Positions 8,840 through 43,623 of a stretch of 64,000 bases of DNA are shown piece after piece. Position 1 is the first letter of the stretch. The number at the start of each line of letters is the position of its first letter. This stretch comes from Pelodera strongyloides. Taxonomy: Eukaryota; Nematoda; Chromadorea; Rhabditida; Rhabditidae. The notes below the pieces were generated by a model that made no database searches, was not told where the DNA came from, and was given only the letters and a program-made list of their open reading frames with translations. Both the position numbers and the translations under genes were made by a program. The DNA lies in the NCBI GenBank assembly GCA_036852015.1, contig JAANDG010000445.1, positions 59,389 to 123,388 on the forward strand, read 5' to 3'.

Positions 8840-8980
8840 GGTACGTTTGCTTCGCTGTTCTAACTATTAATTTGAGTGGTTCATTGTAAGTTTCAAATAT
8901 TGCCGAATGACTTAAAAGCCACATGGGACAGCTATCTGCTTTTTTTCCCGAAAATATATTGTACAACCTACTTTTTCAGT

Positions 8981-9938: not shown

Positions 9939-10012
9939 AGAGAGAGAGAGAGAACTGAGAGATAGGGAGAGAAAGAGAGAGAAGGATAGAGTCACAGAGA
10001 GAGAGAGAGAGT
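9939..10012 (+). repeat. GA-rich microsatellite
   Basis: Imperfect (GAGA)n. The mirrored partner on the other arm is the CT tract at 43533-43623. Both are followed by sequence containing a CAAATTTG-type element and a TGGCATA motif. Confidence 0.9.
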
Positions 10013-10079
10013 TGTTTTGTTATTTGGTCCCTAAATGCAAATTTTTGGCATAGTACTGTAAGACTTAGTGCTTGTAAAA

Positions 10080-10730
10080 TACGCTCTCCACTGCTGTAAT
10101 ACCTCTTTTTTTCTAGAGTTCGTAGGCTAGTTTCTTTGTACATATTTGCGACATTTTTCACTTTTCTATAGCGTTCATTTTTATACTTTGATATACTCTT
10201 TACTTTGCAATAGACTCCTTGTACATACATCCAATTTGCCTCATTGTGCAACATTTATTCATTTTTAATGGCTCTATTTTTTCATAGTTGATATATTCTT
10301 TTTACTCCCCTTGTATATAGCCCCTTTGTATTAATAATTTCTTTTATTTTGGAAGGAAGGGTGGGTAGGGTAGGGTAGATTCTTTGTACATATTTCTGTA
10401 ATATTTGTTTGCACTTGGTACATAGCTTTATTTTTATACTTTGATACAGTTTGCTTTAATTTTATACTTTGATACACTTTGCTTTATTTTCATATACTTT
10501 GATATACATTCCTTATTTTGATCTAGTTCCCTTGTACGTATTCCCTTTTCGTACGTAATTTCCTTATATTCTGGATGGTTGGGAGGGTAGGGTAGGTTTT
10601 TTTGTACATATTTCTGTAACATTTTTCATTTTGCTATATTTCTTATCTTGCTCTATTTTTTCACTTTTATATATTTTGTAACATTCTCTACTTTGCATTA
10701 TTCCCCCTTGTACATATCCCCCTGCATCCC
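10080..10730. repeat. T-rich low-complexity stretch with GGAAGGGTGGG motifs
   Basis: Irregular repeats of TTTTATACTTTGATA and TTGTACATATTTCTGTAA, with G-rich islands at 10345-10380 and 10570-10595. The mirror copy is 42830-43430. Confidence 0.8.
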
Positions 10731-10733
10731 TTA

Positions 10734-11060
10734 ATGTGCAAAAGTCTCCCAGGTGAGGTTCTTAGAAGAAAACACCTACCTCATCTTTCAGCTCCTTCAC
10801 ATTCAGATACAGGCTCGCCCTGCCGTGGCCCTCGTGTTGAGGTCCAGGCGTGCCACGATCCATGGTCAGTGCTGGCCCAGTTCAGAACCTGGCCGGCACC
10901 GGTCCTCCCTCCTGGGGTCCAACCTTCCCCTCTGGCCCGTGGGTCCCCGGGGGAGCACACCTCCCGGGGGGACCCCGACTCCAGGCCAACTCTCCTGGGG
11001 AGTCATGTCCACCAATTCTTTGAGAGCAAAAAGATTCACCGTTGTCCTTTTTTTATTTTC
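10734..11060 (+). repeat. R1 repeat, inner left copy
   Basis: Begins TGCAAAAGTCTCCCAGGTGA and ends in AGATTCACCGTTGTC. GC-rich core. Closest to its mirror copy at 42480-42813 and clearly related to the outer pair. The overlapping Pro/Gly-rich open frames on both strands are a composition effect. Confidence 0.9.
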
Positions 11061-12658
11061 TAATCAATTTCAGGTTTCATTTTTTTTTCTAATCCATTTC
11101 AGGGTCGTCAATAAGTAATACGTATAAATATGCTGCATTAATTCTGTATATTTTCAGGAATAGGTCTACTCCTCCGAATAGGGCTGCATGTCAGGTGTTA
11201 CCGGGGAAAAGTGTTGCATTTTGAAGAACTTATTGTTTCGTTTGTGAGGAAATAATTCGGTTATGAGGCTAAACGGGGTTGTTTTATAATATTCACATAC
11301 AATGCAGTTCGCAATTGATGCTTCTTTCGTTTACGATGATTCTAGCAAAGACTGATAGAAAAATATTAATTTGAGACATTTGAGGCTTGGGGATATTACT
11401 GTAGTGTGAGTAAGTTCACGTGTAGTTTAGCTTGTTTATAAGTTGAAATAGAACATGCAATGCTGAATTTACTTACTAACCCGATTTCAGGAAAGTTACT
11501 CGGCATTCGATTAAGGAAAGAAGGTAATCAAATATAAATTCGTAGCAATAACACAGCCACATTTAGTTTTGTAGATAAATAACACCGCCTTTAAACTTTA
11601 AAGTCCAACCAGTTTTTTTTATGAACTCCTGGAAAAAACCTACCGTAGATGGATTCGTGAATCGCTTGTTTGCGTCAAAATGTGATACTCATTGTTCAGG
11701 CTGCCTATCCAAAGGAGGAGTGCCTCCACCATGAAATGTTCATCGGATTGTGGATGCCGAGGAGGTGGTCTTGATGGTCGTTGTAGACGTGGACGTGCTG
11801 GAAGGGGAGAAGATGGTTGAGGACCTAGGACCGACATACAATATATAACCGAAACAAATATACGTATGGCTAGCGAGGCGAGAGAAGAAACAGGTGCGTA
11901 TCATGGTAGAATTGGTGGTTTTATGATGTGGTCTCAGTTCAAACCGATTGAGATATTTTTTTAATGTTCAGATTGTCGGGAAAGTGGGAGGGTTCACGTG
12001 TCGAGGACATCCTCATCGGCATTTGATAGAAAACAAGGATGTCAGACGAGATCAACAAGGTCGTTGAGGTGTCCGTGGTGGCCGTGCGGGAAAGGGTAGG
12101 TGACCGAACCCGGACCGAAGGCCAAACTACAGTACTCTGTGAACAAACAGGTTCGAATTATAAATTTTAGTCAACCACTAGGAATGCAAACGTAGTTTTG
12201 CTTTCAAATGTATTACAAATTTGTCCAAAACTCCGTACTTTGGCGTCCACTTAGAGTATCCTAATCCTACTCTTAAACTGTCTCGAAGTTTCACTTGGGC
12301 TACACAGCTTTTCTCACCGCCCCCTCGCGCAACTATCACAAAAATGAAATTCGCAGTTTGCTTTGGTGGTCTCATGTAACCAAAAGAAAAGCAGTGGATG
12401 GGCGTTTAACCTTTCGCTGATCGCTTTTAGCCGCAAATGTTATGCGTATGATCGTCCGTCTACATGAACGTTTTCCGCCTCTTATTTTAGTTAGCGGCCA
12501 CATTTTTTAATAATGTTCATGTTCAGATTCACGTAAAATTGTGATCAAACGCGAGAGTGCGGACTGTGAGGGACGAAGACGAATCATAAATGCAGAACAA
12601 AGTACAGTATGCCGACGTGAAGAGGTACACTCAGGTGTGAATTATCGTAAGACTTGTC

Positions 12659-21524: not shown

Positions 21525-24500
21525 TTGTGCGCTCATTTTGGTGCGGCGTTGTTGCGGGAAAACGTTTACCCGCAGCAACGTCGCAGACAAGGTGAACTAC
21601 AGCCAAATTTGTTATGTGGCAGCTTTAATTTTATGGAGCACGCTTCATAAAATTAATTCTGCCGCATAGTTAAACTACATTTTAATTGGATGTGCGCTCG
21701 CTTTGGTGCGGCGTTGTTGCGGGAAAGCGTCACCCGCAACAATGTCGCAGACAAAGCGAACTACTGACAAATTTTCTATGTGGCAACATTAATTTTATGT
21801 AGAAGGCTTCATAAAACTAATGCTGCCGCATTGACAAATTAAATTTTAATTGTCCGTGCGGCCATTTCGGTGCGGCGTTGTTGCGGCAATGTGTACGCCC
21901 ACAACAATGTCGCAGACAAAGCAAACTACTGCCAAATTTTCTATGTGGCAGCATTAATTTTATGTAGAAGGCTTCATAAAATTAATGGTGCCGCATTGAC
22001 AAATTAAATTTTAATTGGCCGTGCGGCCATTTCGGTGCGGCGTTGTTGCGGCAAAGCGTTCACCCGCAACAATGTCGCAGACAAAGCGACAACTGACAAA
22101 TTTAATATGCGGCAGTATTAATTGCATGGAGAACGCTTCATAAAATTAATTCTGCCGCATAATTCAATTCAATTTTAATCGGCCGTGGCGCGCGTTGGTG
22201 CGGCGTTGCTGCGGCAAAGCGTTCACCCGCAACAACGACGCAGACAGAGTGAACTACCGCCAAATTTATGCGCTATGTATGTGGCGGCATTAATTTTATG
22301 GAGAACGCTTCATAAAATTAATTCTGCCGCATAATTCAATTAAATTTTAATCGGCCGTGGCTCGCTTTGGTGCGGCGTTGCTGCGACAAAGCGTTCACCC
22401 GCAACAATGTCGCAAACAAAGTGAACTACCGCCAAATTTATGCGCTATGTATGTGGCGGCATTAATTTCATGGAGAACGCTTCATAAAATTAATTCTGCC
22501 GCATACGCATAATTAAATTTAATCTTAATTGGCTGTGCGCTCGTTTTGGTGCGGCGTTGTTGCGGCAAAGTGTTCACACGCAACAACGTCGCAGACAAAG
22601 TGAACTACCGCCAAATGTATGTACTGTGTGGCTGCATTAATTTTATGGAGAACTCTTCATAAAATTATTTCTGCCGCATACGCATAATTAAATTTAATCT
22701 TAATTGGCTGTGCGCTCGTTTTGGTGCGGCGTTGTTGCGGCAAAGTGTTCACACGCAACAACGTCGCAGACAAAGTGAACTACCGCCAAATGTATGTACT
22801 GTGTGGCAGTCTTAATTTTATGGAGAACGCTTCATAAAAGTTAATTCCGCCGCACAGTTATATTTCAATTGGCTGTGCGCTCATTTTGGTGCGGCGTCGT
22901 AGCGGGAAAGCGTTCACACGCAACAACGTCGCAGACAAAGCGAACTGTCGCCAAATTTACTATGTGGCAGTCTTAATTTTATGGAGAACGCTTCATAAAT
23001 TTAATTCTGTCGCATAGTTAAATTAACTTTTAATTGGCTGTAGGCTCATTTTGGTGCGGCGTTGTTGCGGGAAAGCGTTCACCCGCAACAACGTCGCAGT
23101 CAAAGTGAACTACCGCCAAATTGGCTATGGGCATTATTGATTTTATGGAGAACGCTTCATAAAATTAATTCCGCCGCACAGTTATATTTCAATTGGCTGT
23201 GCGCTCATTTTGGAGCGGCGTTGTGGCGGAAAAGCGTTCACGCGCAACAACGTCGCAGACAAAGCGAACTGTCGCCAAATTTTCTATGTGGCAGTCTTAA
23301 TTTTATGGAGAACGCTTCATAAAATTGATTCCGCCGCATAGTTAAATTATATTTCAATTGGCTGTGCGCTCATTTTGGAGCGGCGTTGTGGCGGAAAAGC
23401 GTTCACCCGCAACAACGTCGCAGACAAAGCGACAACTGACAAATTTAATATGCGGCAGTATTAATTGCATGGAGAACGCTTCATAAAATTAATTCTGCCG
23501 CATAATTCAATTCAATTTTAATCGGCCGTGGCGCGCGTTGGTGCGGCGTTGCTGCGGCAAAGCGTTCACCCGCAACAACGTCGCAGACAGAGTGAACTAC
23601 CGCCAAATTTATGCGCTATGTATGTGGCGGCATTAATTTTATGGAGAACGCTTCATAAAATTAATTCTGCCGCATAATTCAATTAAATTTTAATCGGCCG
23701 TGGCTCGCTTTGGTGCGGCGTTGCTGCGACAAAGCGTTCACCCGCAACAATGTCGCAAACAAAGTGAACTACCGCCAAATTTATGCGCTATGTATGTGGC
23801 GGCATTAATTTCATGGAGAACGCTTCATAAAATTAATTCTGCCGCATACGCATAATTAAATTTAATCTTAATTGGCTGTGCGCTCGTTTTGGTGCGGCGT
23901 TGTTGCGGCAAAGTGTTCACACGCAACAACGTCGCAGACAAAGTGAACTACCGCCAAATGTATGTACTGTGTGGCTGCATTAATTTTATGGAGAACGCTT
24001 CATAAAATTATTTCTGCCGCATACGCATAATTAAATTTAATCTTAATTGGCTGTGCGCTCGTTTTGGTGCGGCGTTGTTGCGGCAAAGTGTTCACACGCA
24101 ACAACGTCGCAGACAAAGTGAACTACCGCCAAATGTATGTACTGTGTGGCAGTCTTAATTTTATGGAGAACGCTTCATAAAAGTTAATTCCGCCGCACAG
24201 TTATATTTCAATTGGCTGTGCGCTCATTTTGGTGCGGCGTCGTAGCGGGAAAGCGTTCACACGCAACAACGTCGCAGACAAAGCGAACTGTCGCCAAATT
24301 TACTATGTGGCAGTCTTAATTTTATGGAGAACGCTTCATAAATTTAATTCTGTCGCATAGTTAAATTAACTTTTAATTGGCTGTGGGCTCATTTTGGTGC
24401 GGCGTTGTTGCGGGAAAGCGTTCACCCGCAACAACGTCGCAGTCAAAGTGAACTACCGCCAAATTGGCTATGGGCATTATTGATTTTATGGAGAACGCTT

Positions 24501-27500
24501 CATAAAATTAATTCCGCCGCACAGTTATATTTCAATTGGCTGTGCGCTCATTTTGGAGCGGCGTTGTGGCGGAAAAGCGTTCACGCGCAACAACGTCGCA
24601 GACAAAGCGAACTGTCGCCAAATTTTCTATGTGGCAGTCTTAATTTTATGGAGAACGCTTCATAAAATTGATTCCGCCGCATAGTTAAATTATATTTCAA
24701 TTGGCTGTGCGCTCATTTTGGAGCGGCGTTGTGGCGGAAAAGCGTTCACCCGCAACAACGTCGCAGACAAAGCGAACTGTCGCCAAATTTTCTATGTGGC
24801 AGTCTTAATTTTATGGAGAACGCTTCATAAAAGTTAATTCCGCCGCATAGTTATATTTCAATTGGCTGTGCGCTCATTTTGGTGCGGCGTTGTAGCGGAT
24901 AAGCGTTCACCCGCAACAACGTCGCAGTCAAAGTGAACTACCGCCAAATTTACTATGCGGCAGCATTAATTTTATGGAGAACGCTTCATAAATTTAATTC
25001 TGTCGCATACTTAAATTAACTTTTAATTGGCTGTGGGCTCATTTTGGTGCGGCGTTGTTGCGGGAAAGCGTTCACCCGCAGCAACGTCGCAGACAAAGTG
25101 AACTATCGCCAAATTTGATATGTGACAGTCTTAATTTTATGGAGAACGCTTCATAAAATTAATAACGCCGCATAGTTAAATTAACTTTTAATTGGCTGTG
25201 CGCTCATTTTGGTGCGGCGTCGTAGCGGGAAAGCGTTCGCCCGCAACAACGTCGCAGACAAAGTGAACTGTCGCCAAATTTGCTATTGGCAGTATTGATT
25301 TTATGGAGAACGCTTCATAAAATTAATTCCGCCGCATAGTTAAATTAAATTTTAAATGGCTGTGCACTCATTTTGGTGCGGCGTCGTAGCGGGGAAGCGT
25401 TCGCCCGCAACAACGTCGCAGACAAAGTGAACTACCGCCAAATTTGCTATGGGCAGTATTGATTTTATGGAGAACGCTTCATAAAATTAATTCCGCCGCA
25501 TAGTTAAATTAACTTTTAATTGGCTGTGCACTCATTTTGGTGCGGCGTCGTAGCGGGCAAGCGTTCGCCCGCAACAGCGTCGCAGACAAAGCGAACTGTC
25601 GCCAAATTTTCTATGTGGCAGTCTTAATTTTATGGAGAACGCTTCATAAAATTGATTCCGCCGCATAGTTAAATTAAATTTTAATTGGCTGTGCGCTCAT
25701 TTTGGTGCGGCGTTGTAGCGGGAAAGCGTTCACCCGCAACAGCGTCGCAGACAAAGTGAACTATCGTCAAATTTACCATGTGGCAGTCTTAATTTTATGG
25801 AGAACGCTTCATAAAAGTTAATTCCGCCGCATAGTTAAATTAAATTTTAATTGGCTGTGCACTCATTTTGGTGCGGCGTCGTAGCGGGGAAGCGTTCGCC
25901 CGCAACAACGTCGCAGACAAAGTGAACTACCGCCAAATTTGCTATGGGCAGTATTGATTTTATGGAGAACGCTTCATAAAATTGATTCCGCCGCATAGTT
26001 AAATTAAATTTTAATTGGCTGTGCGCTCATTTTGGTGCGGCGTTGTAGCGGGAAAGCGTTCGCCCGCAACAGCGTCGCAGACAAAGCGAACTGTCGCCAA
26101 ATTTTCTATGTGGCAGTCTTAATTTTATGGAGAACGCTTCATAAAATTGATTCCGCCGCATAGTTAAATTAAATTTTAATTGGCTGTGGGCTCATTTTGG
26201 TGCGGCGTCGTAGCGGGGAAGCGTTCGCCCGCAACAACGTCGCAGACAAAGTGAACTACCGCCAAATTTGCTATGGGCAGTATTGTTTTTATGGAGAACG
26301 CTTCATAAAATTAATTCCGCCGCATAGTTAAATTAACTTTTAATTGGCTGTGCACTCATTTTGGTGCGGCGTCGTAGCGGGGAAGCGTTCGCCCGCAACA
26401 ACGTCGCAGACAAAGTGAACTACCGCCAAATTTTCTATGGGCATTATTGATTTTATGGAGAACGCTTCATAAAATTAATTCCGCCGCATCGTTAAATTAA
26501 CTTTTAATTGGCTGTGGGCTCATTTTGGTGCGGCGTTGTAGCGGGAAAGCGTTCGCCCGCAACAACGTCGCATTCAAAATGAGCTATCGTCAAATTTACC
26601 ATGTGGCAGTCTTAATTTTATGGAGAACGCTTCATAAAAGTTAATTCCGCCGCATAGTTATATTTCAATTGGCTGTGCACTCATTTTGGTGCGGCGTTGT
26701 AGCGGATAAGCGTTCGCCCGCAACAACGTCGCAGTCAAAGTGAACTACCGCCAAATTTGCTATGGGCATTATTGATTTTATGGAGAACGCTTCATAAAAT
26801 TAATTCCGCCGCATAGTTAAATTAACTTTTAATTGGCTGTGCACTCATTTTGGTGCGGCGTCGTAGCGGGGAAGCGTTCGCCCGCAACAACGTCGCAGAC
26901 AAAGCGAACTGTCGCCAAATTTACTATGTGGCAGTCTTAATTTTATGGAGAACGCTTCATAAAAGTTAATTCCGCCGCATAGTTATATTTCAATTGGCTG
27001 TGCACTCATTTTGGTGCGGCTTCGTAGCGGGGAAGCGTTCGCCCGCAACAACGTCGCAGTCAAAGTGAACTACCGCCAAATTTGCTATGGGCATTATTGA
27101 TTTTATGGAGAACGCTTCATAAAATTAATTCCGCCGCATAGTTAAATTAACTTTTAATTGGCTGTGCACTCATTTTGGTGCGGCGTCGTAGCGGGGAAGC
27201 GTTCGCCCGCAACAACGTCGCAGACAAAGTGAACTACCGCCAAATTTTCTATGGGCATTATTGATTTTATGGAGAACGCTTCATAAAATTAATTCCGCCG
27301 CATCGTTAAATTAACTTTTAATTGGCTGTGGGCTCATTTTGGTGCGGCGTTGTAGCGGGAAAGCGTTCGCCCGCAACAACGTCGCAGACAAAGCGAACTG
27401 TCGCCAAATTTACTATGCGGTAGCATTAATTTTATGGATAACGCTTCATAAATTTAATCCTGTCGCATAGTTAAATTAAATTTTAATTGGCTGTCAGCTC

Positions 27501-30500
27501 ATTTTGGTGCGGCGTCGTAGCGGGAAAGCGTTCGCCCGCAACAACGTCGCAGACAAAGCGAAATGTCGCCAAATTTACTATGTGGCAGTCTTAATTTTAT
27601 GGAGAACGCTTCATAAAATTAATTCCGCCGCATAGTTATATTTCAATTGGCTGTGCGCTCATTTTGGTGCGGCGTTGTAGCGGAAAAGCGTTCACCCGCA
27701 ACAACGTCGCAGACAAAGCGAACTGTCGCCAAATGTACTATGTGGCAGTCTTAATTTTATGGAGAACGCTTCCATAAAATTAATTCCGCCGCATAGTTAT
27801 ATTTCAATTGGCTGTGCGCTCATTTTGGTGCGGCGTTGTAGCGGAAAAGCGTTCACCCGCAACAACGTCGCAGACAAAGCGAACTGTCGCCAAATTTACT
27901 ATGTGGCAGTCTTAATTTTATGGAGAACGCTCCATAAAATTAATTCCGCCGCATAGTTATATTTCAATTGGCTGTGCGCTCATTTTGGTGCGGCGTTGTA
28001 GCGGAAAAGCGTTCACCCGCAACAACGTCGCAGACAAAGCGAACTATCGCCAAATTTGCCATTGGCAGTATTGATTTTATGGAGAACGCTTCATAAAAGT
28101 TAATTCCGCCGCATAGTTAGATTATCTTTTAATTGGCTGAGAGCTCATTTGTGCGGCGTTGTAGCGGGAAAACGTTCACCCACAACAACGTCGCAGACAA
28201 AGCGAAATGTCGCCAAATGTACTATGTGGCAGTCTTAATTTTATGGAGAACGCTTCATAAAATTAATTCCGCCGCATAGTTAAATTAAATTTTAATTGGC
28301 TGTGGGCTCATTTTGGTGCGGCGTCGTAGCGGGAAAGCGTTCACCCGCAACAACGTCGCCGACAAAGCGAACTGTCGCCAAATTTACTATGTGGCAGTCT
28401 TAATTTTATGAAGAACGCTCCATAAAATTAATTCCGCCGCATAGTTATATTTCAATTGGCTGTGCGCTCATTTTGGTGCGGCGTTGTAGCGGAAAAGCGT
28501 TCACCCGCAACAACGTCGCAGACAAAGCGAACTGTCGCCAAATGTACTATGTGGCAGTCTTAATTTTATGGAGAACGCTTCATAAAATTGATTCCGCCGC
28601 GTAGTTAAATTAAATTTTAATTGGCTGTGCGCTCATTTTGGTGCGGCGTTGTAGCGGGAAAGAGTTCGCCCGCAACGGCGTCGCAGACAAAGTGAACTAT
28701 CGTCAAATTTACCATGTGGCAGTCTTAATTTTATGGAGAACGCTCCATAAAATTAATTCCGCCGCATAGTTATATTTCAATTGGCTGTGCGCTCATTTTG
28801 GTGCGGCGTCGTAGCGGGAAAGCGTTCACCCGCACAACGTCGCAGACAAAGCGAACTGTCGCCAAATGTACTATGTGGCAGTCTTAATTTTATGGAGAAC
28901 GCTTCATAAAATTGATTCCGCCGCGAAGTTAAATTAAATTTTAATTGGCTGTGCGCTCATTTTGGTGCGGCGTTGTAGCGGGAAAGAGTTCGCCCGCAAC
29001 GGCGTCGCAGACAAAGTGAACTATCGTCAAATTTACCATGTGGCAGTCTTAATTTTATGGAGAACGCTCCATAAAATTAATTCCGCCGCATAGTTATATT
29101 TCAATTGGCTGTCAGCTCATTTTGGTGCGGCGTGTAGCGGGAAAGCGTTCGCCCGCAACAACGTCGCAGACAAAGCGAACTGTCGCCAAATTTACTATGT
29201 GGCAGTCTTAATTTTTTTGGAGAACGCTTCATAAAATTAATTCCGCCGCATAGTTAGATTATCTTTTAATTGGCTGAGCGCTCATTTGTGCGGCGTTGTA
29301 GCGGGAAAACGTTCACCCACAACAACGTCGCAGACAAAGTGAACTGTCGCCAAATTTGCCATTGGCAGTATTGGTTTTATGGAGAACGCTTCATAAAAGT
29401 GAATTCCGCCGCATAGTTATATTTCAATTGGCTGTGCGCTCATTTTGGTGCGGCGTTGTAGCGGAAAAGCGTTCACCCGCAACAACGTCGCAGACAAAGC
29501 GAACTGTCGCCAAATTTACCATGTGGCAGTCTTAATTTTATGGAGAACGCTTCATAAAATTGATTCCGCCGCATAGTTAAATTAAATTTTAATTGGCTGT
29601 GCGCTCATTTTGGTGCGGCGTCGTAGCGGGAAAACGTTCACCCACAACAGCGTCGCAGACAAAGCGAACTGTCGCCAAATTTACTATGTGGCAGTCTTAA
29701 TTTTATGGAGAACGCTTCATAAAATTGATTCCGCCGCATAGTTAAATTAAATTTCAATTGGCTGTGCGCTCATTTTGGTGCGGCGTTGTAGCGGAAAAGC
29801 GTTCGCCCGCAACAACGTCGCAGACAAAGCGAACTGTCGCCAAATGTACTATGTGGCAGTCTTAATTTTATGGAGAACGCTTCATAAAATTAATTCCGCC
29901 GCACAGTTATATTTCAATTGGCTGTGCGCTCATTTTGGTGCGGCGTTGTAGCGGGAAAGCGTTCACCCTCAACAACGTCGCAGACAAAGCGAACTGTCGC
30001 CAAATTTTCTATGTGGCAGTCTTAATTTTATGGAGAACACTTCATAAAATTGATTCCGCCACATAGTTAAATTAACTTTTAATTGGCTGTGGGCTCATTT
30101 TGGTGCGGCGTTGTTGCGGGAAAGCGTTCACCCGCAACAACGTCGCAGTTAAAGTGAACTACCGCCAAATTGGCTATGGGCATTATTGATTTTATGGAGA
30201 ACGCTTCATAAAATTAATTCCGCCGCACAGTTATATTTCAATTGGCTGTGCGCTCATTTTGGTGCGGCGTTGTAGCGGGAAAGCGTTCACCCGCAACAAC
30301 GTCGCAGACAAAGCGAACTGTCTCCAAATTTTCTATGTGGCAGTCTTAATTTTATGGAGAACACTTCATAAAATTGATTCCGCCGCATAGTTAAATTAAA
30401 TTTTAATTGGCTGTGCGCTCATTTTGGTGCGGCGTTGTAGCGGGAAAGCGTTCGCCCGCAACAGCGTCGCAGACAAAGTAAACTATCGTCAAATTTACCA

Positions 30501-33500
30501 TGTGGCAGTCTTAATTTTATGGAGAACGCTTCATAAAAGTTAATTCCGCCGCATAGTTATATTTCAATTGGCTGTGCGCTCATTTTGGTGCGGCGTTGTA
30601 GCGGGAAAGCGTTCACCCGCAACAACGTCGCAGACAAAGCGAACTGTCTCCAAATTTTCTATGTGGCAGTCTTAATTTTATGGAGAACACTTCATAAAAT
30701 TGATTCCGCCGCATAGTTAAATTAAATTTTAATTGGCTGTGCGCTCATTTTGGTGCGGCGTTGTAGCGGGAAAGCGTTCGCCCGCAACAGCGTCGCAGAC
30801 AAAGTAAACTATCGTCAAATTTACCATGTGGCAGTCTTAATTTTATGGAGAACGCTTCATAAAATTAATTCTGCCGCATAATTCAATTAAATTTTAATCG
30901 GCCGTGGCTCGCTTTGGTGCGGCGTTGCTGCGGCAAAGCGTTCACCCGCAACAACGTTGCAGACAAAGTGAACTACCGCCAAATTTATGTACTATGTATG
31001 TGGCTGCATTAATTTTATGGAGAACGCTTCATAAAATTAATTCTGCCGCATAATTCAATTAAATTTTAATCGGCCGTGGCTCGCTTTGGTGCGGCGTTGC
31101 TGCGGCAAAGCGTTCACCCGCAACAACGTTGCAGACAAAGTGAACTACCCCAAATTTATGTACTATGTATGCAGCATTAATTTTATGGAGAACGCTTCAT
31201 AAAATTAATTCTGCCGCATAATTCAATTAAATTTTAATCGGCCGTGGCTCGCTTTGGTGCGGCGTTGCTGCGGCAAAGCGTTCACCCGCAACAACGTTGC
31301 AGACAAAGTGAACTACCGCCAAATTTATGTACTATGTATGTGGCTGCATTAATTTTATGGAGAACGCTTCATAAAATTAATTCTGCCGCATAATTCAATT
31401 AAATTTTAATCGGCCGTGGCTCGCTTTGGTGCGGCGTTGCTGCGGCGAAGCGTTCACCCGCAACAACGTCGCAGACAAAGTGAACTACCGCCAAATTTAT
31501 GTACTATGTATGTGGCTGCATTACTTTTATGGAGAACTCTTCATAAAATTAATTCTGCCGCATAATTAAATTAAATTTTAATCGGCCGTGGCTCGCTTTG
31601 GTGCGGCGTTGCTGCGCCAAAGCGTTCACCCGCAACAACGTTGCAGACAAAGTGAACTACCGCCAAATTTATGTACTATGTATGTGGCTGCATTACTTTT
31701 ATGGAGAACTCTTCATAAAATTAATTCTGCCGCATAATTCAATTAAATTTTAATCGGCCGTGGCTCGCTTTGGTGCGGCGTTGCTGCGGCAAAGCGTTCA
31801 CCCGCAACAACGCTGCAGACAAAGTGAACTACCGCCAAATGTATGTACCTTGTGGCTGCATTAATTTTAAGGAGAACGCTTCATAAAATTAATTCTGCCG
31901 CATACGCATAGTTAAATTTTATTTTTTATTGGCTGTGCGCTCGTTTTGGTGCGGCGTTGCTGCGGCAAAGCGTCCACCCGCAACAACGTCGCAGACAAAG
32001 TGAACTACCGCGAAATTTATGTACTATGTGGCTGCATTAATTTTATGGAGAACGCTTCATGAAATTAATTCTGCCGCATACGCATAGTTAATTTTAATTT
32101 TTTATTGGCTGTGCGCTCGTTTTGGTGCGGCGTTGTTGCGGCAAAGCGTCCACCCGCAACAACGTCGCAGACAAAGTAAACTACCGCGAAATTTATGCAC
32201 TGTGTGGCTGCATTAATTTTATGGAGAACGCTTCATAAAATTAATTCTGCCGCATAATTCAATTAAATTTTAATTGGCTGTACGCTTGTTTTGGTGCGGT
32301 GTTGCTGCGGCAAAGCGTTCACCCGCAACAACGTCGCAGACAAAGTGAACTGCTGCCAAATTTACTATGCGGCAGCATTAATTTTATGGAGAACGCTTCA
32401 TAAAACTAACGCTGCCGCATTGACAAATTAAATTTTAATTGGCTGTGAGCTCGTTTTGGGGCGGCGTTGTTGCGGCAAAGCGTTCACCCGCAACGGCGTG
32501 GCAGACAAAGTGAACTACCGCCACATTTATGTACTATGTGGCTGCATTAATTTTGTGGAGAACGCTTCATAAAATTAATTCTGCCGCATAATTCAATTAA
32601 ATTTTAATTGGCTGTGCGCTCGCTTTGGTGCGGCGTTGTTGCGGCAAAGCGTTCGCCCGCAACGGCGTGGCAGACAAAGTGAACTACCGCCACATTTATG
32701 TACTATGTATGTGGCAGCATTAGTTTCATGGAGAACGCATCATAAAATTAATTCTGCCGCATAGTTAACTTACATTTTAATTGGCTGTGCGCTCCTTTTG
32801 GTGCGGCGTTGTTGCGGGAAAGAGTTCACCCGCAGCAACGTCGCAGACAAAGTGAATTATCGCCAAAATTGCTATGTGGCAGCATTAATTTTATGGAGAA
32901 CGTGTCATAAAATTAATTCTGCCGCATAGTTAAATTAAATTTTAATTGGTTGTGCGCTCCTTTTGGTGCGGCGTTGTTGCGGGAAAACGTTCACCCGCAG
33001 CAACGTCGCAGACAAAGTGAACTATCGCCAAATTTGATATGTGACAGTCTTAATTTTATGGAGAACGTGTCATAAAATTAATGCTGCCGCATAACAAATT
33101 AAATTTTAATTGGTTGTGCGCTCATTTTGGTGCGGCGTTGTTGCGGGAAAGCGTTCACGCGCACCAACGTCGCAGACAAAGTGAATTATCGCCAAAATTG
33201 CTATGTGGCAGCATTAATTTTATGACGAACGTTTCATAAAATTAATTCTGCCGCATAGTTAAATTACATTTTAATTGGTTGTGCGCTCCTTTTGGTGCGG
33301 CGTTGTTGCGGGAAAGCGTTCACCCGCAGCAACGTCGCAGACAAAGTGAACTATCGCCAAATTTGATATGTGACAGTCTTAATTTTATGGAGAACGTGTC
33401 ATAAAATTAATTCTGCCGCATAGTTAAATTAAATTTTAATTGGTTGTGCGCTCCTTTTGGTGCGGCGTTGTTGCGGGAAAGCGTTCACGCGCACCAACGT

Positions 33501-33620
33501 CGCAGACAAAGTGAATTATCGCCAAAATTGCTATGTGGCAGCATTAATTTTATGACGAACGTTTCATAAAATTAATTCTACCGCATAGTTAAATTAAATT
33601 TTACTTGGCTTTGCGCTCAA
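21525..33620 (+). repeat. 12-kb tandem array, about 73 units of about 165 bp, dual-hairpin unit
   Basis: Units are 164-165 bp in the core and up to about 180 bp in edge subfamilies, all in the same direction. Hairpin 1: ATTAATTTTATG / CATAAAATTAAT stem, extended outward by TATGYGGCAG / CTGCCGCATA, around a GAGAACGCTT loop. Hairpin 2: TGCGGCGTTGTTGCGGG / CCCGCAACAACGTCGCA stem around AAAGCGTTCA. The loops contain GAACGCTT and AAGCGTTC, which are exact complements. In core units the second stem has an A-A mismatch (GTAGCGGG). Open frames inside (for example 23062-23322) merely follow the unit. No promoter, tRNA box or ribozyme core was recognised. Confidence 0.97.
22081..24766 (+). repeat. 1343-bp higher-order duplication inside the array
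   Basis: 22081-23423 and 23424-24766 are almost identical, each about eight units. Only a few base differences were noticed (for example ACGACGC against ACGTCGC near 22230/23577 and ACTCTT against ACGCTT near 22660/23998), so the duplication is recent. Two-unit repeats of about 325 bp also occur near 28661/28985 and 30455/30781. Confidence 0.93.
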
Positions 33621-36611
33621 TTTGGTTACGTATTTTAAATAAATTATTAGGCACTATAGCCCCATAGCATTTTATGTGTCTCATAATTTTGTAAGTGTCT
33701 CATAATTTTGTACATTAATTTTCAGAGATGCTCGGATCATTTTTTGTTTCAAACAAACTTGGTCGCACCTGGATATCCTCCTCCTTTGATTGTTTTGGAT
33801 TGTTGTATTTTGTCCATTGTCTCAAATCTTTTCGTCTCTTTTTGTTCCTTGTCGATAGTCAAAACATTCACGAATGAGAAGAAATGGCCTACATATAATG
33901 AAAAAAGTACACATTTAAAGGCTCTTTTGATAGGAAGGCTATTTTGTATCAATAAAGAATCCACACGCGAATACAAGCAATAAAAGAACTGCAATATGGA
34001 ATGAACAAATGTGACTTTGGAAAGCAAAAGTGATCTTATTTCAATTCTGAATTGTGCCTGTTCCTTCGTTCCACGACGACACCTAAATATTATGATGTTC
34101 ATCGAATAGCTAATTACGTTGTCGAAACGAAAAATAAATAATTTGCATTTGTTTTGTTGAACATGCGGTTGTGCACATGTTGAACATGTCGAAGAAGCGG
34201 TATAGCAGCCGGGTTTTTGAACGTATGAGTATGACTCCATTGCTCTAAGTGCGCTCGGATTGAGATCGATGTTTAGTCTAATCATGCTCATTTATGATGC
34301 CCCAAGGGAATGCAATCTCCCAAAATCCGTTTTAAAACCTGGCTGTTATGCCGCTTTAATTCGTTCTCAGTTTTCATTTTCATTCACTTGCGCTTCTAGA
34401 TGCGTTGTCAGAGTCCAGCAACATTTTGAATAAAAAATTAGATTCCGGAAATACAGTTGAAAATTGGTGCGTGAAATTTACTTTACATGCTTGGAGTTTA
34501 GAAATGAAGCTTGGTACAGGACTGTACCGTTTGATATTCGGCTACAAAGAGTTGGTGCCCCAGCCATGTGACTAGTGTTATACACAGGTGGTTTGTGCTC
34601 TACTGAATACTCCCAAAATTTCATGCTACGTTGAACTTTAACCAACAATGCTAGTGTTTTCTAGTTGACCGATTATGATCTATGACAAAGTAATGAGAAC
34701 GGAAAACCAGCCTGTGAATGAGTAGATCAGCCATGCACCCAACAACGATGTCTCTCTCGAAAGCGACCAGAGCAGCGGTATTCAGATTTTGACAACTGCC
34801 TGAACACATCACAACCATTTAAAGAAAAAGTTTTTCTATATTTTTTTATTTATTGTCTTTTGCAGTAATGAGAGGTCTAGAGGCCTTTTCTTTCTGCGCA
34901 ATAAAATTCATTGAAACGTTTCCCCCGCACACCACGTACTTGTGCATTCATGAGGATGGTACAATGGTGACTTCCCCCCGAATATCAAATAACATACCCT
35001 TACATCGAGAACACTGCTTTATGCACATTTGGTCTCATTTGTTAGCGTAGTTGCTTTCAACCAGAGACTCTTCGAAGAGGTCATGACGTCTTCACATAAA
35101 CGTCGGTGCTCTATATGCCTGAAAGTCGTACTTGGATCCTGTACGGCAAAGTATTTCAAAATCAACACTTTTTCCCGATTCGTTTGCATTTTCACCCGAA
35201 AAACAACTACTAATCATCTTAAGCACCAGCCTCGAAGCGAGCGTTTCTTAAAGGTCAACGCAAAATATCTGACTAAACAACGAACTGTATCAGGAAATCG
35301 GGCTGCTTTACAGCTATAGTGGACTTGGAAACTGGACTCTCCAACTGTAGGTAGATCTTGGACTCCCGGAAAGCTAAAACACTAAAGTTACGAATTACGA
35401 ATGGCACGTAAAAAAAGGTCACGGCAAATTTCAGGTGATGAGATCGTCGACTTTCTGCTATTAATAATACGGATTTGTGCTTCAATTGTTGGTGAAAAAG
35501 CGCCCAGTGTCCTATTATTTGCAGCACAATTTGAAGAAAATGGACAATCTCTTTACACCTTTCCACGTTGTTTATACAATTAATATTAATTCTCGGGAAC
35601 AAAAGTGCGCTTTTTTCCTAGTTGTTTTCGAAAACCAAAAATATCCGAACCTGTGTCCCCCACTCATCCTCATATGGTACTGTATGTTGGTTCGGTGTTC
35701 GTTCTTTCCCATAAACATTCTCGATCAAAATCAGTTGAACCCTTCCCCACCACGGAGAAAACTAGTCACTTGCCAATCTACAAATGCAATGTTCCAGAAT
35801 GGTTCAAACAAGTGTTTTGGGTTTCATAAACCGGTAATTTCTGTGAAACCGCTTACCACGGTTCCATTTTTCAAGACAAAATTTTAGCACGAAAGCGCTC
35901 ACTGGCGGGCACGGTACCTACAAAAGTTCATTGAACACAATTTGTTCCTTTGTTGATTCCATCCACAACTTTACTTCACGGAATTTATGATGTCTTACCC
36001 AGTAAGTGAATTCAAAGCAGTCTCTGCCGTAGTACTTACTTGTTCACTGAGCTGGTTTCAGCTGGACCTTCTCTCCATTACATCCTAACGCAGGAAACCG
36101 ATCAATTCTTCTAATTTGTACTGCAACCTGTTCTTTGATTCCCCTCCTGGTTCACGACGAAGAAAACTGAAACTTATGATTTAACATAAGAATTTTTCGG
36201 CTCTGTGGGCTAACGACCGACCCCACTTTTTTGCATGCGCACAAAAAAATGTTGTGATTTGAACATATGTAGGGGCTTAGGCAGTTGCCGCCCTTTTCGT
36301 ATTCCTTACGTCTAACCTTTGTAGTGTCTAACCTTGTTTCACTCAGAGCTGTTGCCGCAAATAGTTGTGGCTCGATAGTCTTCGGATCATAAGATGCAGT
36401 CCAAGCAAGACCATGACTAAAATAATTATGTTAGGGTTTAATGCACACGTTAGGTCATTGTTTCGCAGTCGCTACTCAATACTTTGGCACATTACACATT
36501 GGCTCAATACTTTGGCGATAGTGAAACCCGAACCCTTGGACTTGGGATCAGGGGAGTTAGAATCAATCCCATGGTATGTAGGTTTCATTAATTTGGTAAA
36601 ATTTAAATGAA
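33621..36611. other. right arm, inner section
   Basis: AT-rich, with no supported gene. A 180-codon frame at 33749-34291 on the - strand is not protein-like and has no homologue that I recognise. Near 35730-35780 a weak - strand relative of the Arg/Gly-rich unit can be made out (CTCCGTGGTGG after a TTTGTAG acceptor). Confidence 0.5.
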
Positions 36612-37056: not shown

Positions 37057-40000
37057 CTGTACTGTATCCATTCTCTTCTCCTCGGTATACGGTACTTTAC
37101 TCTGCATCTATGACTCGTCGTCGTTCCCTCGCCGTCCGCACTCTCGCGCTCGATCACAATCAGTTGGACCTCCATCCAAATTCCGAGAATACAAGTTGGT
37201 GAACGTTGCCACTTGCCAGTCAACCTAAACACTATTGAAAAGTTTAAAGTTTAGCGGCTAACAATGGCAAGCAAAATATATTCATGTAGCTGAGCGAACT
37301 TTAAAAAATATTAAAATACTCATACAATTCCCCTATGATGTTTTCTGTTGGTTACCTCTGATTCCTCTTCATTCGATTAACATTATCGTTTCTATGTCCT
37401 CACATCACCGTCAGAAGGCTGAATTCACAGAAAATATAGAACGACTGGCCTACGCAAAAATTATTTCATTTCTAGCATGCGCGCAACTTTCTAAACGACG
37501 ACATAAATAATTGGCGAGTGTCTGACAAACGCTTCCAGAATTCATTGGTATTGATTGCTTTTGAAACAGAGTATGTTTACGAACACTGCTATTGAAGATA
37601 ATACCGCCCTTAGTAGGATTTTTTCCCTGGGGTACCTACCTACGATCTACCGTAGTTTATATCTATAAAAAATGGTTGTGCAAATTTTTTATGCCTCCTA
37701 ACGTGAGATATCTTTGATATAGATGTCAGAGAAAACTGCTTGAACTCTCATAAAGAGCAATTGTTTCGGGTCTGTCAGTGCCGGTCCCACATAAGCCGTC
37801 CATTTACAACAGAAGTTCATCAACACAAGATACTATTTCTTGTTCAAACTGGCAATCAAATAAAGACTACATTTTCGATATTTTTGCGCAAGTAAGCGGT
37901 GAGAAGCGCTCAGAGAGCAGATTTTTTCAGCGCAACAATTTAAAAAAAAGGATACTCAAAGTTAGACGCCAAAATACGGAGTTTCGGACAAATGTAAACT
38001 ACCTTTTAAAAGTGAATTACCTACGTCCAAGTTGTTGACTGAAATTTATAATCCGAACCTGTTTATTCACAGAGTGCTGCAGTATGGCGTCTTTCTTCAT
38101 TCGACTTTCATTTCTTCATTCCACCACGACCACAGCCGACACCTCGGTAACATCGGACACCTCGATGGCCTCGGTCTTCTCGTCTCTCGTTGCCCTCACG
38201 TGCCAATGAAGAGTTCCACGACACTTGGAGAATCTTCACACTTTCCAGTCAATCTAAACATTAAAATAAAAGTACATGTCGCAAAAATATGGTGTGTTTT
38301 TATAAACCAATTTACCGTGACATCGCGCATACAATATTTCAACGAAATGGATTCAACGAAAAAAAGTCTTTTGGTAACAGATCACAGACTGCAACCAATT
38401 AGAGGCTGTTTATTGCACTGGCAGATGGCTTGTTCATTGTTTGTTGATGAAAAAGTGAGAAACGCAGCAGCACCGGAAAGTCCTAAATTGCATCTCAATC
38501 GGTTGGAACTGAGTGAGAATGTACGACAAAATCCGAGCTTTATTTTTCCCCTCCACAGTTCTGACAAATATTCTACCATAATAATAATCACCTGATTCTT
38601 TCCACTCCTCATTAGGCACGCGTATGTACTTGCTATACGCTCGAACATCTTTCCGTCTTCCGCTTCCACCATGGCCACCACGGCCACCACGTACATCTCG
38701 CTGACCTCGACGACCTCGGTTTCCAGTCTCACACCATCACCATCCGACGAACATTCCATCGGAACTTGGAGAAACTTCTCGCTTGTCCGACAACCTGAAC
38801 ACACTAATGACGAATGTCACATTTTGAAAAGAAAAGCGCTTGACGAGTCCATCTACGGTAGATTTAAGCGCAAGAGCTTTTACACTTTCATATCGGTTTA
38901 CATTTATTGACAAAAAGTGACGAATTTATAATGAGACCCTTGAAAAATAGTCCTAGTTCGCATTTAAAGGATCGCAGTCACTACAAATTCGTATTTTTTA
39001 TTCGCTTTTCATTAATTGTTCAAGTATGTGAAGAAAACGACGATTCCAGCGCCAAAGTACGGCAAAACGAACTCAGGGAGAGAAATGCCTGTTTATGACT
39101 TTTACTTATATACCGTAGTTTATAATTGCCCGTATAGAGTTTCATAATAAATACCCTGCAGTGATAAACCACGCGCCAGGTGTAACACTGCAGGCTGTTC
39201 ACTTCCAAGTACCCCTTGGCAATTGCATATATGCACCGGCGACGGTCATTTACCAAAACCCATTTCATTGATTTCTCTCCCTGAGTTCCATTTTATGTGG
39301 ATTTTTATGGGCTGCATATTGTTTTATAAATCTGCTTGCATCTAATAAAAATCGAATAAAAAAGTTGATTTTGAAGTGACTGCCTTCCTTTAAAGGGATA
39401 GTTCATTTCAAATCACCCCGTTTTTTATTGTTTTCATTAATGGTAGCACAAATATCATTCACAATGAGAATTAATTCAATTACAGAACCATACGCCTCGC
39501 AGAAAAAGCTTCCTTTATTGGAAACTAGGTGATCGGAAGCCAAAATCTAAACGCAAAAACTAATACCGTACACAGATCGCGCGGGCTAATGGCAATTAGC
39601 CAAGATACAAACTACACTCGGCCAAGTGCGATTACACGATAATTCACCGTGGGAAATAATGTTCTGCCGAGTGTAGTTTGTAACTTGGCTAATTGCCATT
39701 AGCCCGCGCGATCTGTGTACTGTATTAGTTTTTGTGTTTAGATTCTAGCTTCCGATCACCCAGTTTCCAATAAAGGAAGCTTCTTCTGCGAGGCGTATTG
39801 TTCTGCGATTGATTTACTTTTCATTGTGAATGATACTTGTATTGTTATTAATAAAAACAATAAAAAGAGGGGTGATTTGAGATGAACCTATCCCTTAAAA
39901 CTAGATTTTTTTGGTGAAACCTTAAAGCTTCATGTACTTACTTGTTTTGCTTGGGTTAACCTCGATTATCCGATTCCTCTAAATTCGCTACGGTAACCAG

Positions 40001-41865
40001 CTCGCACGACAACGTTCATTTTCTTCATCTCACGTTAACAACTTTCTAAAATATTTGGCTTTGATCCCGTAGATGCCACAAGAATTGATTAGTATCGATT
40101 GCTTATGCAGGAAGAGGATGGATTTATGAACATTACTGTAAAAGTGAATACCCCATTCAAACAACATTCAAAACATGCCGAATTATTAACATGCAGGCCT
40201 ATCTACGATCTACTTCCCGGCAAACTGTTCCACCAGGTACCGCATTCGGAAATGCCAAACTACGTCTTAATCCTTCTTACATATATCCGTCAATTTTCAT
40301 TCGTTCAGTCATAAAAATGCTAAGATATGTCTCTTACGATAATAACAAAAACAAGGGGTTTCTAATGCGGGATTGTCCAAAAAGCGCAAAAATTGAGTTC
40401 TAGGTGTTTATAATCCGTACTTTTTGCACAGTGTTGGTCCTTTTTCTTCTCGTTTTCCATTTCCACGACATTCACCCCGGCCACCTCGACGACCTCAGTC
40501 TCCTCGACAACCAACCTGATCCTGAACAATGCGAGAGTCAGTAAAGACGCAGAAAATGTGTTTACCCATTTATAATTCAATTCTGAATGAAGTTCGAGTT
40601 CTTTCATTTTTCATGCACAACAAAACTTAGAAAAGCGCCGTATTGAGGGACTGCTATGTGCACATTTTCGTCTTGTCGTCAATCATCACTAGCGGCCACT
40701 GAACAAACTAAAACTGCCTCAATCCCCCTCCCCTGCCCCCGTGTTTACTAAGGTTGGAAAAGTAGTTGCCCCCGAATGTCCCAAGTGTCATCGCAATCAT
40801 TTACAACTGAAAAATGTTCAAGAAAAACCGGCTATATGCAGATAGTTTCGTCTACAATATAAACCATATTCTACCTGAGCCTCTACTTATATATAATGTG
40901 TCAATAAATTATTGTTATTGACCTCTTTCTTCTCACTCCTCATTAGGCGCGCGTATATTTGTTTTATTTGTACACATCCGCCCTTGGTCCTCGATCACCT
41001 TCCCGTCTTCCTATTCCACGAGGCTCACCTCGGCCACCTCGACGATCTTAGTCTTCCCGTACCGTATCCTCGACAGACAATCTGAACCTGAGCAATACGA
41101 GGGTCTACGAACGCGTAGAAATTTATTTGTTTCATTGATCATTGAATTGTAAATCAATTTTCAGATTTTTGATTTGTCATGCACAACAAAACGCCACATC
41201 AAGATCAAGGGAATGCAAAATTTTCGTCGAGCTGTCAAAATTAGTCATCAAGAGGTCTTCAAGTGAAAGGGACAAGTCCATCAAACTAAACCACATTTTC
41301 GATATTTTCATAATTAACATAAAACATTTTTATTATAATACATACAAACCAGATTTCACCTTCACCCTGGGGAACTTTTCCAGTGAGCCCATCATAAATG
41401 TATACCGTAAAACTGCAGATTTCAAAGCTATGCAAATTTTGAACACATTATAATTTCACGATAAATTTGCGGCAGAGTCGCAGAGTGGATGTTTGCACTT
41501 TTAAGGTATGCATATATGATGAGCGCATCGGGAAAAGTTTTCCAGCGTTAATAAAGATGAAATTTGGTTTGTATATATGTAATAATAAAAATGCTTCATA
41601 ATCATTATGAAAGTGTCGTAAATATGGGTTTACTTTGATGGACCTGTCCCTTTAAAAAAAAGACGTACCTCTTTTTTCCTCTCTTCATTAGTTGCATTGG
41701 TTTCGGTTTCTACATTGTATGTGGGTCCTTCCTCGACCTCCTTTCCGTCCTTCTCTTCCACCACGTCCACCTCGGACACCTCGACGACATCAGTCTTCCA
41801 TTCCTCATTCCCGCCCTCGATCACAGAACATTCGACACCAGGTGGGTCTTCATTTTCCAGTTAAT
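37057..41865 (-). pseudogene. array of decayed Arg/Gly-rich exon-like units, right arm
   Basis: Mirror of the left series. Units: 41669-41865, about 40940-41081, about 40420-40521, 38592-38794, 38059-38253 and 37057-37224. They open after (G)TTCAG or GTTTAG and close before GTACGT, GTGATT or GTTCGG. Unit 37057-37224 pairs specifically with 12527-12633 (shared GAGCGCGAGAGTGCGGAC-like core). Unit 38592-38794 is fully open in the VEVSE frame and in the later two-thirds of the RG frame (RGGRGGHGGSGRR). Other units carry stops. The four-base-regular GGT/CGT/GGA pattern favours an Arg/Gly-rich ancestor, but no intact gene remains. Confidence 0.55.
39390..39898. mobile_element. long palindromic TTAA element
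   Basis: About 509 bp. TTAAAGGGATAGTTCATTTC at the left end is mirrored by GATGAACCTATCCCTTAA at the right. Inverted similarity continues through the interior (AATTAGCCAAGATACAAACT / AGTTTGTAACTTGGCTAATT) to a centre near 39645. It lies between two exon-like units of the right arm. Confidence 0.92.
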
Positions 41866-42479
41866 CTGAACAACAGGGAAGTCTATAAAGAAACATGTTT
41901 TATATAACCCCATTTATCGTAGATTTTCAAATGAATTTTCACCTTTCTATTTGTCATTCACAGCAAAAGTAGGAAATGCGACGCTTCACGGGAATATTAT
42001 GAATTTCACCCAGGCGAACGATGCACACTAGGGTGCGTGGAAAGTTAATTATTTAGTGATAAACATTTTTCATTTGATTACCTTTGATTCGCGTCCCCTA
42101 GAATTTAATTGGGAGATTATTTGGGCTACAGTAACTTTCCTGAAATTGAGTATTACACTGTGAAGATTTTTCAGCTACAACTGAAACAACTTATAAAATA
42201 TTTCAAAAACTGAAATTCCACAATTTTGGGATCTTATTAGACCAATCCATTAAGCTCAAAGAAAATAATGATTCCTAAATGAAGATCAGTGCTGAATCTC
42301 ACTCTCACACACTATCCAACAAATTCTTCCACGCGCGTGATTTTCCAGGACACTAATTCACATGGCTGCATCCCAACCAAAAGAGTAGATATATTCCTGA
42401 AAATATGCAGAATTAATGCAGCATGTTTATAATTATTACTTACTGACGACCCTGAAATGGATTAGAAAATAAAATAAAA

Positions 42480-42813
42480 CCTGAAATGGATTAGAAAATA
42501 AAAAAGGACAACGGTGAATCTTTTTGCTCTCAAAGGATTGGTGGACATAACTCCCCAGGAGAGTTGGCCTGGAGTCGGGGTCCCCCCGGGAGGTGTGCTC
42601 CCCCGGGGACCCACGGGCCAGCGGGGAGGGTTGGACCCCAGGAGGGTGGACCGGTGCCGGCCAGGTTCTGAACTGGGCCAGCACTGACCATGGATCGAGC
42701 AGGCCTGGACCTCAACACGAGGGACACCACAGGGCGAGCCTGTATCTGAATGTGAAGGAGCTGAAAGATGAGGCAGGTGTTTTCTTTTAAGAACCTCACC
42801 TGCGCGACTTTTG
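42480..42813 (-). repeat. R1 repeat, inner right copy
   Basis: Reverse-orientation partner of 10734-11060, beginning GACAACGGTGAATC on the + strand and ending GCGCGACTTTTGCA. High identity throughout the GC-rich core. An upstream GAAATGGATTAGAAAAT element is tandemly doubled here just as in the left arm. Confidence 0.9.
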
Positions 42814-42829
42814 CACAACAAGGGATGCA

Positions 42830-43430
42830 GGGGGATATGTACAAGGGGGCATATAGCAAAGTAAAGAATGTAACAAAATATATCAAAGTGAGAAATAGAG
42901 CAAGATAAGAAAGAAATATAGCAAAATGAAAAATGTTGCAGAAATATGTACAAAAATCCCTACCCTACCCTCCCAACCATCCAGAATAGAAAGAAATTAC
43001 GTATGCAAAGGGAATATTTACAAGGGGACTAGCTAGATCAAAATAAGGAATATAACAATGTATATCAAAGTATGAAAATAAAGCAAAGTAAGTATATCAC
43101 AGTATAAAAATAAAACAAGGTAAGCATATCAAAGTATAAAAATAAAGCTACGTACAAAGCGCAAAAAAATATTACAGAAATATGTACAAAAAATCTACCT
43201 ACCCACCCTTCCTTCCAGAATAAAAATAAATTAACAATGCAAAGGGGATATTTACAAGGGAACTAGAAAGAATATGTCAAAGTACAAAAAAATGAAAAAA
43301 TGTTGCAAAATGATTCAAAATAAAGGTCTATCGCAAAGTAAAGAATAGTACAAAATATATCAAAGTATTAAAAAAAGCAAATTGATAAATTTACATAAAT
43401 ATGTACAAAGAAACTAAGAAACTACCCTAC
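42830..43430. repeat. A-rich low-complexity stretch (mirror of 10080-10730)
   Basis: Repeats of TATCAAAGTATAAAAATAAA and TTACAGAAATATGTACAAA with CTACCCTCCC islands, the complements of the left-arm motifs in mirrored order. Confidence 0.8.
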
Positions 43431-43532
43431 CCTCCCTTCCAAATTAACACCGACTTACAGTAGTGGAAATCGTATTGCTATGTTACAACATTACTATGCC
43501 AAGAATTTGCTTTAGGCTCTAAATAACAAAAT

Positions 43533-43623
43533 AACTCTCTCTCTCTCACTCTCTCTCTCTCTCTTTCTATTTCTCTCTCTCTGTATCCCTCTATATACCT
43601 CTCTCTCTATCGTTCTCTCTCTC
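43533..43623 (+). repeat. CT-rich microsatellite
   Basis: Imperfect (CTCT)n, the mirror partner of the GA tract at 9939-10012. Flanked by TTGCAAATTTGTGGCATAAT, matching the left arm in reverse. Confidence 0.9.

Follow-up and report, generated by a model that had tools for sequence, protein, structure and literature searches.

Is the hairpin structure of a tandem DNA array maintained by selection, or was it inherited from the sequence that founded the array? A locus of the nematode Pelodera strongyloides, where each repeat unit holds two hairpins with complementary loops, raises this question. The locus is a natural hairpin-dense tandem array whose 73 copies allow structure that was inherited to be distinguished, by counts of changes, from structure that is selected. 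We analyzed a window of 64,000 nucleotides, that is, the whole stretch corresponding to bases 59389–123388 of contig C445 (JAANDG010000445.1), which ends where the contig ends. Genome-wide searches covered the 159.9-Mb assembly (GCA_036852015.1) with its 1171 contigs. We conclude that the array is probably a local, single-locus, non-coding satellite (a long minisatellite) with inherited palindromic hairpins, homogenized by unequal exchange.

Extent and composition of the array

The sequence-only reading had described a unit of about 165 bp in a tandem array of about 73 copies. TRF confirmed this description with a period of 165 and 73.1 copies, and placed the array at 21526–33626, so that its end lies at 33626 and not, as given earlier, at 33620. 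Splitting the array yielded 73 units, the last of which includes a partial next unit, with 65 distinct sequences and a mean pairwise identity of 0.876 (gaps ignored). All units point in the same direction, as the core of hairpin 2 matched 73 times in forward and 0 times in reverse orientation (≤3 mismatches).

21526..33626, + strand: tandem array of 73 head-to-tail non-coding units, 159–182 bp, in a single orientation
29433..29597, + strand: representative unit u49, 165 bp

No open reading frame of at least 100 amino acids was found inside the array, and a protein-coding repeat was therefore rejected. A known RNA family was likewise rejected, because Rfam release 15 gave 0 matches in the window at the gathering score. 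As non-coding head-to-tail repeats homogenized by concerted evolution, the units have the properties of a satellite or minisatellite. Classical satellites are abundant and occupy many loci or centromeric blocks, whereas the array is one 12-kb locus, as judged from assembled copies only.

The unit can fold into two hairpins with complementary loops

Each unit contains two strong, imperfect palindromes in adjacent positions. The earlier claim of two strong inverted repeats per unit was borne out by folds of both the consensus and real units. Hairpin 1 comprises 24 pairs and a 10-nt loop containing AAGCGTTC. Hairpin 2, for which 32 pairs were used in all counts, has a loop containing GAACGCTT.

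29440..29503, + strand: hairpin 1 of u49, from the fold
29467..29474, + strand: loop-1 motif AAGCGTTC of u49, placed by hand count with the start of the unit as reference
29508..29597, + strand: hairpin 2 of u49, counted from alignment columns 76–165
29545..29552, + strand: loop-2 motif GAACGCTT of u49, counted by hand

The majority consensus folded as RNA with –71.8 kcal/mol; in this predicted fold, three further pairs would close loop 2 and leave a loop of 4 nt. Individual units had a mean energy of –63.5 kcal/mol (range –74.3 to –50.0). The fold of unit 29433–29597 corresponded to z-scores of –5.49 as RNA and –4.57 as DNA, and none of 200 shuffles was as stable in either case.

The two loops had been described as exact 8-base complements. 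This holds for 45 of the 73 units; in a further 5 the 8-base match is whole via a G-U pair, and the remaining 23 carry at least one mismatch or gap. When 10-nt loops were shuffled with their composition kept, 95 of 200,000 trials reached an 8-base match. For a single founder sequence, the match thus exceeds chance. The 73 units have a common descent, however, and do not count as 73 independent trials.

We observed no covariation between the loops. Within units, 554 of 584 loop-loop positions were paired, compared with 554.1 (sd 1.1) when loop 2 was shuffled among units. Loop 1 is changed in 16 units, loop 2 in 20 and both in 8, and full pairing was regained in 0 of these 8. In unit 70, G-C became A-T at one loop position, while the next position is broken. 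The unmatched loop changes ACACTT and ACGTGT noted by the sequence-only reading are both present in units. Its proposal of a kissing loop or dumbbell is correct as far as the potential to form two hairpins with complementary loops is concerned; a maintained pairing is not supported. An H-type pseudoknot between GTTCAC in loop 1 and GTGAAC 3' of the stem was rejected, because 17 of the 65 distinct units break the pairing (A-T in 28, A-C in 17, G-T in 12 and G-C in 8).

Base pairing and variability across the units

In hairpin 1, 1435 of 1555 cells pair within the distinct units, compared with 1443.5 between shuffled units. Taking all 73 units together, a single cell out of 1747 had changed on both sides and was still paired, and in a set of 24 diverse units, 23 of them distinct, changes on both sides were seen at no pair. 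Hairpin 2 behaved differently on the all-unit alignment, with 1863 of 2025 cells paired within units versus 1848.7 (sd 3.9) after shuffling (p = 0.0005). Changes on both sides had preserved pairing in 23 of 2275 cells and left 8 such cells unpaired. Thirteen of these 23 have T-A in place of C-G at a single pair (columns 87/144) beside an indel, 5 have G-T in place of T-A (84/148), and the rest occur once or twice each. In many T-A units an insertion adjoins the column, so that pairing at 87/144 is sensitive to the placement of the indel in the alignment. On a second alignment, made from the 24 diverse units, 89.5% of the cells were paired versus 89.6% after shuffling, and 2 cells had double-sided changes versus 3.4 expected. 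The pairing excess of hairpin 2 consequently depends on the alignment and is gone on the second one. Covariation, which the sequence-only reading had put forward as a check, amounts to no excess in the loops, none in hairpin 1 and a small, alignment-dependent excess in hairpin 2.

Of the 18 units that have an insertion in the 5' arm, 6 also contain a CGCATA insertion in the 3' arm, which none of the remaining 55 units has (Fisher, p = 0.00011). Four of the six units come from a single duplicated block and two adjoin each other, indicating few independent events. Copying between the palindrome arms, without selection, could be the source of such paired insertions.

The stems contain 106 variants. 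Pairing in a plus-strand RNA is preserved by 30 of them, compared with 21.1 (sd 3.5) expected from the spectrum of non-stem variants (p = 0.008), and pairing in a minus-strand RNA by 27. Stem transitions tolerated by G-U pairing number 25 on a plus and 27 on a minus transcript. They are thus strand-symmetric and favor no strand of transcription.

Column diversity, counted in gap-poor columns only, averaged 0.103 in the stems (105 columns), 0.067 in the loop motifs (16) and 0.213 in other unpaired positions (33). Permutation of columns against the other unpaired ones gave p = 0.0004 for stems and 0.0003 for loop motifs. When the masks were slid round the unit, 4 of 164 placements were as low for the stems and 12 of 164 for the motifs, which therefore do not stand out. 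Counting each variant once narrowed the contrast to 0.95, 1.00 and 1.32 variants per column for stems, motifs and other unpaired positions, respectively, and the loop motifs rank only 22nd and 42nd least variable among 158 eight-base windows. Rates that do not differ between stems, loops and linkers had been named earlier as speaking against maintained structure. The array conforms to this only in part, as stems and loop motifs are at most about half as variable as other unpaired columns. In our view, this lower variability reflects mild constraint, or spacers that align with uneven quality, and does not prove an RNA structure. Overall, the change counts across the 73 copies give little support for selection on pairing.

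Genome-wide distribution

The exact core of hairpin 2 matched 45 times in the genome, always within the array. With up to 3 mismatches, we obtained 73 matches for this core, 70 for the 5' half plus loop of hairpin 1 and 72 for its 3' arm, again all within the array. The 3' arm of hairpin 2 gave 102 matches (64 forward, 38 reverse) at the same threshold; among the 100 of these that were listed, one lies outside the array (contig C14, 3 mismatches). Chance explains this match, as about half a match is expected in this genome. A BLAST search with hairpin 1, in which 40 of 43 candidates were scored, returned 87 matches, none of them outside the array. The corresponding search with hairpin 2 proved insensitive, with 2 matches despite 73 copies, and its negative result was set aside. 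The joined flanks matched only themselves. They are single copy, which places the array outside any dispersed element that a flank search would find.

With the listed hairpin matches confined to the array, nothing points to a dispersed transposon or, within the assembly, to a multi-locus satellite. On the basis of the hairpin-1 BLAST and the flanks, a dispersed transposon was rejected. A dispersed element with the unit sequence, as expected for a MITE-derived satellite, was not found by the hairpin-1 BLAST, with the flanks or in the surrounding sequence. Compared with the surrounding sequence and the nearby MITEs, the unit showed no significant similarity (best E 0.59), so that a MITE origin can only be inferred.

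The searches also bear on possible targets of small RNAs. Four arm and loop patterns, which cover part of the hairpin-2 arms and were allowed up to 3 mismatches, revealed, among the matches listed, one chance-like sequence outside the array. Any siRNAs made from the arm stretches covered by these patterns would thus lack a close target. In prokaryote genomes, a 16-mer pattern matched at least 120 stretches, each of the 80 listed having one match. As about 120 are expected in this collection, we read these matches as chance. A pattern scan of viral contigs gave 0 matches.

Origin and homogenization of the array

The units carry several marks of exchange. A block of eight units is present in two copies with about 99% identity (6 mismatches listed), and eight pairs of units are identical.

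22048..24777, + strand: block of 8 units recently duplicated in tandem, 22048–23434 repeated at a lag of 1343 bp

Identity between units peaks at lag 1 (0.880), lag 2 (0.882) and lag 8 (0.871), and is 0.84–0.86 at other lags up to 20. Identity to the consensus is 0.84–0.90 in the four units at the left edge, 0.83–0.93 in the eight at the right edge and 0.926 on average in the middle. We read the block duplication, the identical pairs, the lag peaks and the diverged left edge as marks of unequal exchange.

The array occupies one locus in the assembly, has one orientation, contains a recent block duplication and lacks loop covariation. For its origin, we propose a founder unit that would have held two neighboring imperfect palindromes. 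These are plausibly debris of foldback or MITE-like elements, of a kind common in the region. Palindromic elements are frequent around the array and elsewhere on the contig, so that palindromic founders were at hand. The unit may have multiplied in place via unequal exchange or replication slippage, a process that the hairpin-prone DNA itself may have promoted, and repeated local duplication would have homogenized the units. The matching loops would already have been present in the founder and been copied along, in which case the existence of the array needs no loop-loop pairing. The palindromic debris, the hairpin-aided expansion and the absence of an RNA function are what we infer.

A local satellite is favored because block duplication, identical units and lag peaks are typical of exchange-driven homogenization, and because covariation is absent from the loops, from hairpin 1 and, on the 24 diverse units, from hairpin 2. 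It is further favored by the confinement of the listed hairpin matches to the array, one chance-like match apart, by the strand symmetry of the stem transitions and by the frequency of palindromic MITE-like elements with TTAA-type ends nearby. Several observations count against it, namely the lower variability of stems and loop motifs relative to other unpaired columns, the stem variants that keep pairing above expectation, the hairpin-2 excess on the all-unit alignment, the association of 3'- and 5'-arm insertions and the fact that edge units are not uniformly more diverged.

Known systems and alternative explanations

Satellite monomers with internal dyad symmetries and the potential to form hairpins have been described (PMC13081366; PMC12628747), and hairpins alone therefore do not distinguish the array. 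The sequence-only reading knew of no ordinary satellites with such a unit; among the papers listed by our literature searches, we saw none on complementarity between the loops of two hairpins in one monomer. Nematode tandem repeats have units of up to 180 bp, with tracts of up to 50 kb in C. elegans (PMC9071541, the review 'Nematode chromosomes'). The array resembles these local satellites and minisatellites in its tandem repetition and unit size, but differs in that its unit consists almost wholly of two strong hairpins with complementary loops. The satellites of Tribolium species and Trichogramma brassicae also contain inverted repeats with hairpin or cruciform potential inside the monomer, a feature of unproven function (PMC13081366). 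Those of Tribolium are, however, abundant and putatively (peri)centromeric and have long dyads with arms of ~300–470 bp (PMC13081366), whereas the array is confined to a single 12-kb locus and each of its units has two short dyads. Routes from MITEs to satellites via stem-loops have been proposed, with Xstir and miDNA4 as MITE-derived satellites (PMC12628747). The array shares with them the conversion of stem-loop-prone DNA into tandem copies, but no dispersed relatives of its unit were found in the genome.

Among the alternatives to a local satellite, selection on the pairing of the two loops, as a kissing loop or dumbbell in a transcript or single strand, appears to us the most improbable. 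The exact complement in 45 units, rare in random loops, the low diversity of the motifs and the G-C to A-T change in unit 70 are consistent with such pairing, but none of the eight doubly changed units is fully paired, an excess within units is absent, and the motifs rank just 22nd and 42nd in low variability. Furthermore, loop 2, closed to 4 nt in the predicted fold, would need opening to kiss. We give very little credence to the broader idea that one long transcript of ~146 hairpins, with loops kissing within or between units, would act as a structured RNA scaffold or dsRNA source and that this structure keeps the array. CENP-B is a DNA-binding protein that organizes arrays in other satellites, and GAACGCTT on one strand equals AAGCGTTC on the other, so that the two motifs are an inverted duplicate of one site. 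Together with their low diversity, this would suit an 8-bp site for an array-organizing protein. We consider such a role very doubtful, as the motifs are not more conserved than several stem stretches and the array is a single 12-kb locus in the assembly; we know of no protein for the putative site. It is also quite unlikely that the loop match reflects shared ancestry, with the two hairpins being diverged inverted copies of one palindrome. By eye, TGCGGC lies at the stem base of both and the loop motif is common to them in inverted orientation, but arm similarity with masked loops was 14 compared with 13.6 in shuffled hairpins (p = 0.50), and inclusion of the loops gave p = 0.107. As the similarity was not above that of shuffled hairpins, inverted paralogy of the two halves was rejected.

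The strongest rival to a local satellite, albeit an unlikely one, is a hairpin-RNA locus. The array would be putatively transcribed into a long RNA with ~146 hairpins, from which Dicer would produce endo-siRNAs. Nematodes have RNAi, the array has inverted-repeat hairpins tandemly arranged at a single locus (stems of 24 and ~32 pairs), and stem variants stay paired more often than expected. Tandem multiplication of single-locus hairpins is known from Drosophila hp-CG4068, whose hairpin is repeated 20 times in tandem in D. melanogaster, with 9 to 14 copies present in the simulans clade (PMC10317233). This locus is transcribed and yields Dcr-2-dependent siRNAs that target mus308 (PMC10317233). 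The array shares with it the tandem multiplication of hairpins at one locus with changing copy number. Transcription and siRNAs would be putative in the array, and the searched patterns revealed no target-like sequence. The latter result, obtained with four patterns at ≤3 mismatches and one chance-like match among those listed, argues against an siRNA source, as do the restriction of hairpin-1 BLAST matches to the array, the lack of a within-unit pairing excess in hairpin 1 and, on the second alignment, hairpin 2, and the strand symmetry of the stem transitions. If RNA expression supported this explanation, the array would represent a nematode counterpart of tandem hairpin-RNA loci.

Genomic surroundings

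The array is enclosed by a decayed large inverted duplication, which lies outside the array and serves as context.

4227..12624, no strand assigned: left side of the inverted duplication
37073..49246, no strand assigned: right side of the inverted duplication
4227–5197 with 49246–48321: block, 88%
6179–6397 with 47135–46907: block, 76%
9861–11171 with 43691–42383: block, 81%
11956–12262 with 38269–37949: block, 70%
12538–12624 with 37160–37073: block, 84%
5395–5511 and 5449–5539: short blocks that also match the right side
14469–14632 with 38314–38140: out-of-order block, 69%

The duplication is largely collinear, and by arithmetic its center lies at ~25–27 kb, inside the array. It is either segmental or composed of two inverted copies of a low-copy element. 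Seven left-side blocks had no match in a sample of 89 kb from outside the window, of which 39 kb came from the same contig. A low-copy transposon present in both orientations could have escaped so small a sample. A segment of ~260 bp occurs four times (4792–5047, 10783–11046, 42507–42769 and 48464–48719), with one copy close to either end of each side of the duplication and ~85% likeness in the pairs listed.

Palindromic MITE-like elements were observed at the following positions; several end in TTAAAGSG-type motifs, and relatives of three are found elsewhere on the contig and of two on contig C300.

12659–12829, 17319–17484, 36611–36793, 39389–39900, 59004–59367 and 60987–61476: palindromic MITE-like elements

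The 89-kb sample contained one other array with a period of at least 40 and at least 3 copies (66 bp, 4 copies). A second tandem array in the window, at 63580–64000, has a period of 71 and about six copies and runs off the contig end.

Pfam scans covered six frames at 11.5–21.5 kb and 33.6–43.6 kb, two forward frames at 1–15 kb and 10 open reading frames, with ORF 44643–45029 as the only sequence beyond 43.6 kb. The only clear coding match in these stretches was a ZER1-like exon at 1544–1699 (PF22964, 8.7e-16). Matches below the cut-off were DIE2_ALG10 (0.0012; 33749–34291, minus strand), the best among the 10 open reading frames, and RRM_YTH1 (0.0043) and DUF2953 (0.0041) in the six-frame scans.

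In the assembly as a whole, the spliced leader SL1, which is diagnostic of nematodes, gave 460 matches with at most 1 mismatch (199 forward, 261 reverse; control 0) and thereby marks the host as a nematode. An 18S pattern had 0 matches, and histones were found. Many of the SL1 matches are dispersed, and at 1276–12412 of contig C26 SL1 is repeated at ~600-bp spacing, a run that is probably the 5S/SL1 cluster.
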